A stretch of 34,990 nucleotides of DNA from Clostridia bacterium (GTDB lineage: Bacteria > Bacillota > Clostridia > Oscillospirales > CAG-272), in the NCBI GenBank assembly GCA_017625065.1, contig JAGALS010000012.1, positions 1 through 34,990 of the forward strand, written 5' to 3'. The position numbers and the translations under genes were made by a program. Below, piece by piece: positions 59 to 33,300 of this stretch. A model generated the notes under the pieces. It was not told the origin of the DNA, ran no database searches, and saw only the letters and a program-made list of their open reading frames with translations. The number at the start of each line of letters is the position of its first letter. The first letter of the stretch is position 1.

Positions 59-526
59 CTATTTCAGAGATAGTATAACTATGACCGCTACCGCCACTAT
101 TGCCACTCCTGCTGCCACCAGACCGGCTATTTTGAGTTTGTTTGTGTTGTGTGTCTGATGGCACTCTGCGTTTGGGCTTGTACCTGTGCCTTTTGCAGTA
201 TCCGTAGAAGCAGGCGCTTTTTTATAAAGCATTGTACCTATCTTTTTTACGTCGGCAATTCTCTCCTTGCAAAAGTTACGCTTCAATTCGAACACAGCTC
301 TTGCAAAATCTTCATCTGTGAAGGTGTCTTTATTTGCGGAAACCAACTCGCCATTTAAGACAGTTTCAAACAACGTTATCCCTTTGCTTACAACATAATT
401 GACAACCTCGTCAAATTCGCCGTCAGAAAAATCGCGGCATGTATAGCATATGCTACCGATAGATTCTCTCAATCCATTAACATCGTTTTCCGCTATGCCT
501 TTTTCTATTGCATCATATTTTTGCAT
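59..526 (-). CDS. Small tail-anchored membrane protein of the dynamin operon
   Basis: Family not recognised. The 155-aa product has a charged, probably helical N-terminal part (about residues 1-105), a low-complexity Thr/Asn-rich linker (about 106-129) and one strong hydrophobic helix at the very end (about 131-153, rich in Ala, Val and Ile) closed by a single Lys. That layout is a C-tail anchor with the bulk of the protein in the cytoplasm. There is no signal peptide. The start follows a GGAGG box 7 nt upstream. The gene begins only 16 nt after the stop of the large dynamin-like GTPase, so it is almost certainly co-transcribed with the two GTPases. Inference: it may tie the GTPases to the inner membrane or serve as a partner that they act on. 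The gene is AT-rich like the rest of the island. Confidence 0.72.
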   Translation of the reverse strand: MQKYDAIEKGIAENDVNGLRESIGSICYTCRDFSDGEFDEVVNYVVSKGITLFETVLNGELVSANKDTFTDEDFARAVFELKRNFCKERIADVKKIGTMLYKKAPASTDTAKGTGTSPNAECHQTHNTNKLKIAGLVAAGVAIVAVAVIVILSLK

Positions 527-2861: not shown

Positions 2862-4046
2862 TTATCTTCTCGCATCAAAATGTTCGCTGTCAATTTGTGC
2901 GTTTTGTATGTATCTTTCAAGATATGGGATTCCCGTATTATTAAGTGCCTCAATAATATCTGCGACCCTGTAAGACACGCCGGATACTTCAATGCATTCG
3001 CAAGGATTTTGACATCCCTTCGTGATAGCATATGCGCTTAAGTCCGCTCTTTGAGGAGGATATAGCGCAAAATATTGATTGAATTTCCTGCGTTCAGTTC
3101 TCGTCAATTCTTCATGCCGTAAAACTTTTTTGAAGATCTCTGCCCACAATGCCGAAGTAGGTATTATATCGGGATTTTCAATTTTACATTCAGATGTAAG
3201 ATAATCACGTATATCCACCAAAATTTTTTCGATAGACTCACCCTTTTCGGCTTCGTATTCATCGCATTTGTTAACTACAAACACCGCAGAGAGTTCCTTG
3301 CGCTTATTTAATGTTTGACACACATTCAGTAGCAATGTCTTATCATCGTTTATTCCGAACTGCGTGGCATTGATGATATATACGATCAGCCCTTCTTTAA
3401 TTTTTGAAAGAATGTCGAGCGTGATCTTGCCATGAGAGGCATCCTGAGAATTGTTGGTGCCGGGAGTATCTATCAAAACCACTCTCTTTTTCGTGTTAAG
3501 TACACCCTTGATTTGAGTTCTGATGATGATTTTATCAATGTTGGGATTTTCGTTGGCTTCCTTAAGTACAGTTGCCCAATCATCATACGAAATCTGCGCT
3601 TTTTGTCCGTCTTTATAAACCGGTTCTATTTCTGTCACATCATCAGTATCATTATCATAAATTCGATATGATTTGGCAGTGCATGCAGAATTGCTACTTG
3701 GCAGAATGCTCTTGTTCAATAAAGCATTAATCAATGTGCTTTTTCCTGATGACATTGTTGCCATCACGACAACGGGGAACAGAGCCGTACTGCTTTCCGA
3801 TCGATACTTCAAAGGTTGATTTCTGCAAACTAAAAATTTATCATTCTTTGTATAAACCTTTTTATAGTCGAATGGCTTACCTCGACTCCAGCCTTCACCT
3901 TTAAGCACATCTGCAACTTCGATAATTCTGTATCTAAAATCTGTATCTTGCCAACCTTTTCGTTCAACAAATATAGGTAATTCAAAAATTTCAGCTATCT
4001 CCTGCGCTGAATACAATTGATTAAAATCAAATTGATTATTGTTCAT
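2862..4046 (-). CDS. Short dynamin-like GTPase (394 aa)
   Basis: A second GTPase of the dynamin type, related to its 766-aa neighbour through nearly identical G motifs: P-loop ending GKST (residues 96-104), G2 threonine about 123, DTPG (193-196) and NKCD (259-262). It has a distinct N-terminal region of about 85 residues and ends about 130 residues after G4. It therefore lacks the long helical stalk and probably works with the large partner. The start at 4046 was chosen because AAGGAG lies 5 nt upstream; a longer in-frame extension to 4175 would run through the inverted-repeat segment and has no ribosome binding site. It is the first gene of the three-gene operon. The only good promoter just upstream points the other way (see 4217-4245). 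Confidence 0.83.
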   Translation of the reverse strand: MNNNQFDFNQLYSAQEIAEIFELPIFVERKGWQDTDFRYRIIEVADVLKGEGWSRGKPFDYKKVYTKNDKFLVCRNQPLKYRSESSTALFPVVVMATMSSGKSTLINALLNKSILPSSNSACTAKSYRIYDNDTDDVTEIEPVYKDGQKAQISYDDWATVLKEANENPNIDKIIIRTQIKGVLNTKKRVVLIDTPGTNNSQDASHGKITLDILSKIKEGLIVYIINATQFGINDDKTLLLNVCQTLNKRKELSAVFVVNKCDEYEAEKGESIEKILVDIRDYLTSECKIENPDIIPTSALWAEIFKKVLRHEELTRTERRKFNQYFALYPPQRADLSAYAITKGCQNPCECIEVSGVSYRVADIIEALNNTGIPYLERYIQNAQIDSEHFDARR

Positions 4047-4132
4047 AACATCTCCTTTTTGCTCCAACAAGAAAGAAGCGATGTCTATTGCATCGAATGG
4101 TATATTCGACGCAGTAACAAGAACGAAAAAGA

Positions 4133-4165
4133 GCATATTTTCTTCCCAAGGGGGTGAAAATATGC
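4133..4165. other. Hairpin inside the putative invertible segment
   Basis: A perfect 10-bp stem (4133-4142 with 4156-4165; GCATATTTTC and its complement) around a 13-nt loop. It has no proper T-run on either side, so it is a weak terminator candidate at best. It could help hold the switch or bind a protein. Confidence 0.4.
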
Positions 4166-4216
4166 CGCTTAACATATATCTTTATTTAAAGTAACATATA
4201 AATTTACATTATTGTC

Positions 4217-4245
4217 TTGAAAAGAAGTCGAAAAAGTAGTACAAT
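4217..4245 (+). promoter_or_regulatory. Promoter inside the putative invertible segment, facing away from the dynamin operon
   Basis: TTGAAA (4217-4222), 17-bp spacer, TACAAT (4240-4245). In the sequenced orientation it would produce RNA from about 4252 rightward, antisense to the 3' end of the recombinase gene. No comparable promoter was found on the minus strand between 4046 and 4300. After inversion about the two arms, the -10 box would fall at about 4136-4141 on the minus strand, with a predicted leader of about 80 nt before the dynamin start at 4046. Confidence 0.6.
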
Positions 4246-4299
4246 AATTATGTATATGTCGAATTTGTGTGAAGAATATACCAATCGATGCAGTTTTGC

Positions 4300-5232
4300 T
4301 CATAAAACACGAGGCAGCCTTTGCATCATTTGAATTTTGTGTTCGATCATGCAATGTGCATATCGATTTAGTGTTATAGATGCATTTTGATGTCCCATGA
4401 TATCTGCCACTGTCTTTATATCAATTCCGCATTCAACAGCACGGGTGGCAAAGGTATGACGAAGTGCATGAAAATTCAACTTTCGTACTCCGGCTCGCTC
4501 TGTTATTTTTTCAAACATATATTGGTAGGAACGAATTGACATTCGTTCTCCTTTTTTATTTTCAACCACATATGGAGTCTGCGCTAATTTATAATCTTCT
4601 TTTAACAGTTCTATAATGTATTCGGGCAAAGGAATCACTCTGTCTGAGGACTTTGTTTTTGGTGTATCTACGCAGAGCTGCCAAACCCCGTTCTCGTTTT
4701 TCTCTCGGTATACCGTTTTAGTGATTTTTATTACACCGCAATCAAAGTCTACATCATTCCACATAAGCCCAAGCAATTCTCCAATACGCAAGCCCGTATA
4801 GAGACAGAGCAGAATTCCATGCAATCTTCTATCATCTGATTGGACAATTGCTTGTTCGATTAATCTTTGCTCCTCGAGTGTAAACGCTTCTACTTTTTTG
4901 GATTCTACCTTTGTTCTGCGTACCTTTATGCAGGGGTTATCCTTTACATATTCCATATCGTACGCATATTCAAATGCAAGACTAAGTATTGAAAGCATCA
5001 TATTAGTGCTTGTTGCGGATAACTTATCCCCATTTTTTACATTTCCATCTTTTTTCTGTTGTAAGAGAAATTCTTGGATTTCCTTTCTTCCAATTTCAGA
5101 TATTTCATATTCACCAAGAGATGGGATTATATGCATCTCAATCAATCCCTGATATCGACGATATGTCCTTGATTTAATATGATCCTTTTGGTAAGTTTCT
5201 AACCATTCGGTTAGCAAATTGCTAATTGTCAT
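4300..5232 (-). CDS. Tyrosine recombinase / phage-type integrase
   Basis: A 310-aa site-specific recombinase. The N-terminal half (about 1-110) has the SAM-like core-binding domain typical of phage and ICE integrases. The catalytic domain carries the full set: Arg149 (TGLRIGE), Lys194, His255 and Arg258 (HALRH), His281 (GHQN) and the nucleophile Tyr291 (NRYAH). The enzyme therefore looks active. It is at the short end for integrases and lacks the extra N-terminal arm-binding domain of about 60 residues, a feature shared with invertases. AGGAG precedes the start. It lies next to the inverted-repeat segment at 4089-4292, on the same strand as the dynamin operon. It may be the switch recombinase, the integrase of the AT-rich island, or both. 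Confidence 0.9.
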   Translation of the reverse strand: MTISNLLTEWLETYQKDHIKSRTYRRYQGLIEMHIIPSLGEYEISEIGRKEIQEFLLQQKKDGNVKNGDKLSATSTNMMLSILSLAFEYAYDMEYVKDNPCIKVRRTKVESKKVEAFTLEEQRLIEQAIVQSDDRRLHGILLCLYTGLRIGELLGLMWNDVDFDCGVIKITKTVYREKNENGVWQLCVDTPKTKSSDRVIPLPEYIIELLKEDYKLAQTPYVVENKKGERMSIRSYQYMFEKITERAGVRKLNFHALRHTFATRAVECGIDIKTVADIMGHQNASITLNRYAHCMIEHKIQMMQRLPRVL

Positions 5233-5394: not shown

Positions 5395-5670
5395 TTATTC
5401 GTTTGTATCCGATTGTACCTCCATCGCCAATCGCGCTCCGAGGCGGAAGGCGTATTCGAAGATGGCTGCTTCAGCAAGGCTTACGTACTCGTCCCAGCAG
5501 TCGTGGAACTTTTCAAAGATCTCCTTCTGCTCGTCGGTGAAGGTCTTTGCTAAGTCCTCGTGATGCCTCGCCATGTACTCCATAAGCTGCTTCATTTCGG
5601 GGGAGTTGTTTCTGCTGTCCTCTTGCGGTATTATGTTGCCGTGCCACAGTTCTTTTATCATACTTTTCAT
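5395..5670 (-). CDS. Small DUF6809-like protein (91 aa)
   Basis: A small, acidic, helical protein that resembles the DUF6809 family, short proteins common in mobile elements and phages of Clostridia: an N-terminal MKSMIKELWHGNI segment, a central stretch of charged helix, and a C-terminal ...FEYAFRLGARLAMEV end. Function unknown. The ATG at 5670 was chosen because AGGAGG lies 7 nt upstream; the in-frame GTG at 5679 overlaps that Shine-Dalgarno box. The gene has its own terminator and stands alone between the recombinase and the tRNA remnant. The family assignment is from recall of the sequence pattern, not a search. Confidence 0.68.
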   Translation of the reverse strand: MKSMIKELWHGNIIPQEDSRNNSPEMKQLMEYMARHHEDLAKTFTDEQKEIFEKFHDCWDEYVSLAEAAIFEYAFRLGARLAMEVQSDTNE

Positions 5671-5695
5671 AGGTTGCACCTCCTGTTAGCACAAC

Positions 5696-18335: not shown

Positions 18336-18529
18336 ACTACTCATCCACCGCTAACGCGGTCCCCCTTCCCTCACAAGGGAAGGCAAACGGCGTCCATCGA
18401 TTTTCAATGGACGGGAAGCTTGTAAACCTTTGGAAGAATTTTTCATAATCCGTCTATTGTCAAAAGCAGCAAATTTGGTAGCCTTCCCTTGTGAGGGAAG
18501 GGGGACCGCGTTAGCGGTGGATGAGTAGT
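18336..18529. repeat. 194-bp element with 49-bp perfect terminal inverted repeats
   Basis: Arms 18336-18384 and 18481-18529 are exact reverse complements over 49 bp, starting ACTACTCATCCACCGC. The outer 11 bp are shared with the element at 11431-11505. The 96-bp centre has no open frame worth noting but has a small TCCATCG...CGGATTATGA-type AT-rich part. A MITE-like element in the gap before purH. Confidence 0.8.
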
Positions 18530-33021: not shown

Positions 33022-33300
33022 TAGGCAAGAGTGAATAATCCGAACCCGCCCTAAAGCCATGCTTTTTCGCGGTTTTTGTGCTTGTCCTTCTTGCAAAGTC
33101 CACACTTGGCGGCGAACGCCAAGCAGCAAAAAACATCAAAAAATCAAGGCTTGAGGGTCTTCCGAGTTTTGAGAGAGCAAATATTTGTAGATGCAAGGTG
33201 AAATTTTCGAGATAATATGTGGATATTATAAGAAAATTTCCCGACGCAGATGCACATATTTGCCTCTCAAAACCGCGTTCGGATTATTCACTCTTGCCTA
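33022..33300. mobile_element. MITE-like element with 24-bp perfect terminal inverted repeats
   Basis: Ends 33022-33045 and 33277-33300 are exact reverse complements (first bases TAGGCAAGAGTGAATAATCC). An inner hairpin from about 33167 to 33272 pairs over nearly its whole length with a few mismatches (TTTTGAGAG... with ...CTCTCAAAA). No coding potential for a transposase. It lies 12 nt after the guaA stop. Confidence 0.8.

Follow-up and report, generated by a model that had tools for sequence, protein, structure and literature searches.

The segment at positions 4089-4292 of the stretch of DNA analysed here (34,990 nt, in the following called the window) is very probably an invertible promoter segment, or inverton, which is flipped by the adjoining tyrosine recombinase and which at present stands in the OFF orientation for an operon encoding dynamin-like GTPases. 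A promoter switch in this orientation had been proposed in an initial annotation of the DNA. It was supported as the best explanation by the anatomy of the locus, by the recurrence of the arrangement within the recombinase family and by the occurrence of both orientations, together with an inversion, among relatives. The predicted features are listed in Table 1.

In the mechanism proposed here, strand exchange would take place in the identical 7-bp cores (TGGTATA) of two opposed sites, and the segment would be turned round. In the assembled state the promoter would be directed toward the recombinase, and an internal terminator would hinder read-through into the dynamin operon (OFF). When the segment is inverted in silico, the -10 box comes to end 89 nt ahead of the dynamin start; the leader would then measure about 82 nt (ON), and the hairpin would sit behind the promoter, without a T run. 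Cells within one population would differ in making the two GTPases and the anchored protein.

Table 1. Predicted features of the switch locus and its neighbouring genes (positions in the window)
Feature	Position	Strand	Basis or remarks
Small protein, 155 aa, C-terminal hydrophobic anchor	59..526	-	Resembles the small protein that follows the dynamins of L209 and L207
Dynamin-like GTPase 2, 766 aa	543..2843	-	Dynamin_N
Dynamin-like GTPase 1, 394 aa, first gene of the putatively switched operon	2862..4046	-	Dynamin_N
Putative distal recombination site	4089..4113	+	Arm TGCATCGAA, 7-bp core TGGTATA (4098-4104), inner arm TTCGACGCA; contains the 19-bp repeat 4089-4107
Terminator-like hairpin (4133-4165) with T5 (4130-4126), toward the dynamin genes in the present state	4126..4165	-	Folding
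Putative invertible promoter TTGAAA-17-TACAAT, OFF (toward recombinase)	4217..4245	+	Consensus scan; like promoters at the same place in relatives
Putative proximal recombination site	4268..4292	-	Arm TGCATCGAT, identical core TGGTATA (4277-4283), inner arm TTCTTCACA; contains the 19-bp repeat 4274-4292
Tyrosine recombinase, 310 aa	4300..5232	-	Phage-integrase domain; complete reading frame
DUF6809 small protein, before the recombinase	5395..5679	-	Common to L002 and L003, absent from most of the recombinase family

The inverted repeats described in the initial annotation are present: TGCATCGAATGGTATATTC and GAATATACCAATCGATGCA are complementary at 18 of 19 positions and are separated by 166 nt, with the promoter within. 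The latter was found again with a score of 10/12, directed at the recombinase and away from the dynamin operon, and the spacings of 42 nt between the left arm and the first dynamin start (4046) and of 7 nt between the right arm and the recombinase stop (4300) were confirmed. The repeat score of the region 4001-4500 was reached by one of 2000 first-order Markov shuffles of the same 500 bases. Elsewhere in the 35-kb window, three inverted repeats at similar spacing are stronger than the 4089/4292 pair, so that the repeat pair alone proves nothing, and the case is built on context and relatives. The window contains a 49-bp inverted repeat at 18336-18384 and 18481-18529 with its arms 96 nt apart, which by its appearance gives the impression of a dispersed repeat element, and another at 33022-33048 and 33274-33300 (score 24.5) with 225 nt between the arms. 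A search of the assembly for the repeats of the switch returned one further site with 3 mismatches, and no second pair of them was found elsewhere in the assembly.

A terminator-like hairpin with a T5 run, absent from the initial annotation, was detected by folding (-17.1 kcal/mol, z -3.6); none of 200 shuffles was equally stable. The consensus scan for promoters and terminators does not contain it, and its loop probably exceeds the length that the scan allows. Since the promoter faces away from the dynamin genes and the hairpin faces them, the present state looks OFF twice over. Two promoter-like sites directed toward the dynamins were returned by the consensus scan, one within the segment at 4273-4244 (9/12) and one inside the recombinase gene at 4424-4397 on the minus strand (10/12). 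Both are located upstream of the hairpin, and read-through would have to pass it. A weak terminator-like site from the same scan (4095-4079, minus strand) lies just ahead of the dynamin start. It is part of the leader whichever way the segment stands and might lower expression. In the gap of 42 nt from the segment to the start codon, a ribosome-site-like AAGGAGA is visible by eye, and there is hardly space for a separate full promoter. Dynamin expression looks dependent on inversion, as judged from this arrangement of predicted signals.

The recombinase gene claimed beside the right arm is complete, with an intact 310-aa frame and a phage-integrase domain. In an alignment of 20 recombinases the residues R149, K172, H255, R258, H281 and Y291 are invariant, which we take to be the catalytic set of the enzyme. 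In the profile search, the protein scored well under the curated cut-offs set for XerC, for XerD and for tyrosine-type DNA invertases. The neighbouring DUF6809 protein was considered as a fixed partner of the recombinase and rejected, being found at only 6 of 94 loci, of which two are second copies of the same record and three are model seeds or a copy of one; no mention of DUF6809 was found in the open-licence literature. Antisense RNA to the recombinase from the OFF promoter is possible. A terminator-like hairpin at 4528-4549 on the plus strand inside the recombinase gene would stop such an RNA; it is not counted as evidence, as like shapes in relatives may reflect a conserved stretch of the protein.

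The alternative that survives best is a family of switches that inverts, with the copy in the window locked OFF, so that the dynamins would be silent or would owe their expression to rare read-through starting, for instance, at the promoter-like match in the recombinase gene. We regard this as unlikely. It would agree with the single orientation known at the window locus, with the difference between the inner arms (TTCGACGCA versus TTCTTCACA) and with the position of the match at 4424-4397 on the dynamin strand, whereas the complete recombinase frame with its family-invariant residues, the identical cores of the two sites and the open frames of all three operon genes argue against decay.

The preferred reading, a promoter switch, draws on the relatives of the recombinase; compared loci and genomes are designated by L- and G-numbers, respectively. 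At E 1e-40, such relatives were detected in 83 of the 395 genomes of the family, own genome included. When 28 of these loci were read downstream, 21 showed a promoter of at least 10/12 toward the recombinase and the other seven none that strong either way; in L020, promoter matches of equal score point in both directions. From a scan of GTDB contigs, the best 80 of 577 confirmed recombinase loci were used. These loci, together with locus L119 from a viral contig and minus L092, for which the contig contains no stop codon, form the scored set of 80. A layout of recombinase, repeat pair enclosing a promoter and a variable gene is common to many relatives. A repeat pair with a score of at least 10 was found at 63 of the 80 loci (from the best 80 of 577) and none at the remaining 17, six of which have less than 150 nt downstream and eleven of which do not. 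Restricted to loci with at least 440 nt downstream, the repeat score is at least 10 in 60, at least 12 in 54 and at least 14 in 44 of 71 among the matches listed. The corresponding numbers for control phage integrases are 14, 3 and 2 of 28, these being the members of 79 other viral loci with sufficient downstream sequence (29 listed, one dropped), and shuffles reached scores of 10, 12 and 14 in 586, 78 and 10 of 2000 cases. A score of 10, often attained by controls and shuffles, says little; scores of at least 12 carry weight.

In 58 of 66 site pairs the two sites have the same central 6-7 bp, and 29 different cores occur among the 35 clear dyads whose centres agree. The exact-seed search for repeats partly favours identical cores, but the dyad centre was located independently of it. 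A cargo-facing terminator at -9 kcal/mol or better was found at 12 of 51 loci and on the other strand at 4 of 51; as a rule of the family such a terminator was rejected, for it is merely a tendency (12/51). The recombinase family occurs mostly in Clostridia records (among the best 80 of 577 GTDB loci). Relatives on plasmids were found in three records with 31-34% identity, and in the viral collection many distant relatives lie near contig ends. The viral locus L119 is located on a 7.5-kb contig, filed as viral, which is broken inside the switch region; judged by eye, the first 144 nt past its stop codon are nearly identical to those of L041.

A comparison of orientation across related genomes, as suggested by the initial annotation, revealed both promoter orientations among homologous loci. 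For this purpose the genomes of the family and the best 80 of the 577 GTDB loci were pooled, with the window included, a repeat score of at least 12 and identical segments counted once (n=68). By a strict rule, the promoter is directed toward the recombinase (OFF) at 41 loci, the window among them, and toward the downstream gene (ON) at 10, and 17 are unclear. A simple promoter score, applied to the 63 repeat-bearing loci from the best 80 of 577, gave 43 OFF, 16 ON and 4 undecided. Single calls shift with the rule: from the simple to the strict one, L042 turns from ON to unclear and L106 from OFF to ON, and L099 also changes. As OFF outnumbers ON about four to one, the ON state could be rare. 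A tree was built from 52 recombinases, namely those 51 with clear calls and L041, added by hand with a repeat score of 11.5. ON and OFF require 10 changes on it compared to a shuffled mean of 10.2, and do not cluster. This is expected from a fast change of state; random calling errors would fit as well.

The relatives closest to the window can be compared directly. L039 (78% recombinase identity to the window; recorded as a Clostridia MAG from sheep colon) and L040 (67%) are OFF, and the window segment aligns better with them as assembled than flipped (157 versus 106 and 158 versus 85.5, respectively). In L041 (62%), the promoter is directed toward a methyltransferase-type gene and the hairpin is reversed (ON), and the window segment aligns better flipped (81.5 as assembled versus 122). 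The alignment with L042 does not discriminate between the orientations (126 versus 130.5). Close relatives of the window, as far as orientation can be read from these predicted elements, occur in both states.

The clearest case of an inversion is presented by L078 and L117, from two species genomes. The recombinase side (91.8% identity over 931 nt) and the far side (98.7% over 77 nt) match in the same direction, and the intervening 162 nt are 99.4% identical in the opposite direction. The outer half-sites are retained, the inner halves are swapped and the core TTTCCCA is unchanged. As read from this alignment, the pair is an exact natural inversion with half-site exchange across a 7-bp core, and the exchange locates the presumed crossover to within about 7 bp. 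Weaker cases are L075/L081, with 82% identity over 100 nt reversed and both flanks in the same direction, and L097/L099, with 81% over 93 nt reversed and no far-side match listed. The screen for natural inversions yielded some 20 pairs; in most of them the reversed matches are short and confined to the repeat arms, and these pairs remained uncounted.

These comparisons also bear on an integrase of a mobile element as the source of the recombinase gene, with the repeats as remnants of attachment sites and the promoter as incidental. The enzyme does share a protein superfamily with phage integrases, and the many distant relatives near contig ends in the viral collection would suit such an origin; nevertheless, we hold it to be highly improbable, as the sites are inverted, not direct, lie 166 nt apart and enclose a promoter, the repeat pair recurs at the same place in 54 of 71 relatives (among the matches listed) with unlike cargo, and L078 and L117 differ by an exact inversion. 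Just as improbable is the reading of the segment as a fixed promoter, antisense to the recombinase and restraining it, whose target is not the dynamin genes: the promoter is directed toward the recombinase at 41 of 68 loci (GTDB part from the best 80 of 577) and the hairpin at 4528-4549 lies on the same strand inside the recombinase gene, but the opposite direction is found at 10 of the 68 loci and in L041, and such a promoter needs no repeat pair.

The first genes downstream of the switch differ even among close recombinases. As cargo we took the longest open frame past the switch, an assignment that may be wrong in single cases. Twenty-one cargo proteins, picked by hand, were scanned by Pfam and/or PADLOC, not each against both. 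Models of restriction-modification or candidate defence were matched by 11 of them (L041, L042 in part only, L052, L055, L062, L069, L072, L080, L083, L105 and L117), a number which, with a non-random selection, yields no rate. Other cargo comprises an NRPS (L040), an SPFH protein with zinc ribbons (L054), a repeat-bearing protein (L043), a NusG-like protein (L057), an AraC-type regulator (L087), a DegT-type match (L053) and a TPR protein (L049). For the cargo of L064 no PADLOC match was obtained, and for that of L086 and L103 no Pfam match.

The two GTPases and the tail-anchored protein of the initial annotation were recovered as two Dynamin_N proteins and a third protein with a C-terminal hydrophobic stretch. 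The window makes up one entire contig of an assembly of 97 contigs that is 87.7% complete. Between the end of the third gene and that of the contig lie 58 bases, so the operon may extend past base 1. Eleos (LeoA-LeoBC) is a defence system of two dynamin-like GTPases side by side. This adjacency is shared by the window, whose proteins match the PADLOC models of LeoA and LeoBC weakly and partially (1.3e-8 and 1.9e-5); a full-length match of both proteins was not obtained, and L207 likewise gave only a partial match.

Relatives of the first dynamin were detected by tblastn in nine plasmid records (five from Lactococcus, two weak ones from Lysinibacillus, one each from Treponema and E. coli). Besides the own genome, there is one in the 395 genomes of the same family (G134, at E 1e-15), and three further ones occur in the 394 genomes of the order sample (G476, G547 and G678, at E 1e-25). 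No first dynamin was found in viral contigs and no long dynamin in phage records. Three plasmid operons (L207, L208, L209) consist of two dynamins, one or two small proteins and a HerA/DUF87 ATPase, and the order of two dynamins followed by an anchored small protein in the window matches this plasmid layout from Lactococcus, Treponema and E. coli. Compared with Eleos, the plasmid relatives add the small protein or two and the HerA-type ATPase. Within a set of four sequences, BLAST of the third protein gave E-values of 1e-6 (L209), 6e-6 and 4e-4 (L207) and 0.95 (L208, no detectable likeness); a hydrophobic C-terminal stretch is also present in the small proteins of L208 and L209 and in the second one of L207. 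A search of the 87.7%-complete own assembly for HerA with one query, the L209 protein, gave no match, and the window contig ends after the third gene. The dynamin-dynamin operon recurs in L207, L208, L209, L038 and L206; the plasmids are typed as conjugative in Lactococcus and E. coli, and a Treponema plasmid also carries it. With its small proteins and, on three plasmids, the HerA/DUF87 ATPase, this recurring operon is a candidate defence operon only partly matched by PADLOC. Weak family matches and the company kept by the relatives suggest that the dynamin operon of the window may serve anti-phage defence.

A WYL-domain gene precedes the dynamins in four of the six other operons with the upstream side seen: L207 and L209 (by annotation, L207 also by Pfam), L038 and L206. 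In L208 this place is taken by an IS66 transposase and in L205 by two frames without Pfam match. The recombinase and the switch of the window occupy the position held by the WYL gene in 4/6 other dynamin operons. No switch was found before these operons, as the best inverted-repeat scores in the 600 nt upstream of L207, L208, L209, L038, L205 and L206 range from 7 to 12.5; the 12.5 of L207 is taken as chance, since 78 of 2000 shuffles of the window region reach 12 or more. The 120 nt obtained upstream of the dynamin in L203 contain no repeat. It is conceivable, if somewhat doubtful, that recombinase, private repeats, promoter and terminator form a portable cassette, which moves before unrelated costly operons, very often restriction-type or defence-like ones, and turns them ON by chance in a minority of the cells. 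In the window, it would stand in the place of a WYL regulator, with stochastic switching instead of sensed induction.

Recombinase-linked invertons of Clostridia are already known, as described for inverton group 139, of which 32 of 33 members belong to Clostridia and which is tied to a nearby tyrosine-type recombinase (invertase group 35); flipping was observed by read mapping in two named members (PMC11892184). This pair of groups from gut Clostridia is the closest known kind, the window being likened to it by description; no dynamin cargo was found in what is described of the group (PMC11892184). In C. difficile, the tyrosine recombinase RecV serves several sites with unlike repeats, among them the flgB switch with 154 bp between 21-bp imperfect repeats, and the cwpV switch, which lacks a promoter and forms a terminator in the OFF state; both are described as acting after initiation (PMC5386303). 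The window likewise has a tyrosine recombinase, and its segment holds both promoter and terminator; compared with the several sites of RecV, the sole other repeat-like match in its assembly has 3 mismatches. In E. coli fimS, the promoter is located inside the invertible segment (PMC5386303), as in the window, in another host; the window recombinase belongs to a mostly clostridial family (among the best 80 of 577) with changing cargo. PinQ links a recombinase-made inversion to phage resistance, here by a serine recombinase and an inversion that creates a new protein and is not a promoter switch (PMC12529663). Judged by these descriptions, the RecV and PinQ switches are more distant from the window than inverton group 139 (PMC5386303, PMC12529663). 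An inverting dynamin operon was not found among the titles and abstract openings listed from the open-licence literature. By its predicted elements, the segment is a well-built promoter switch; its general kind is known, and its dynamin cargo is newly met in the literature surveyed.

From the locus and its relatives we infer that flipping of the segment at 4089-4292 and transcription would take place here, and that bet-hedged defence may be the purpose. If this is true, a bacterial dynamin system, of a kind mostly without known purpose, would be under the control of a simple genetic switch. Its state would be readable from existing metagenomes, and a comparison of the ON and OFF fractions between samples, such as those containing phages and those free of them, would show when the GTPases pay off. 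The recombinase family provides many natural switches that are built alike and carry different cargo, DNA methylases among it, by which phase-variable defence in uncultured Clostridia would become testable at scale.
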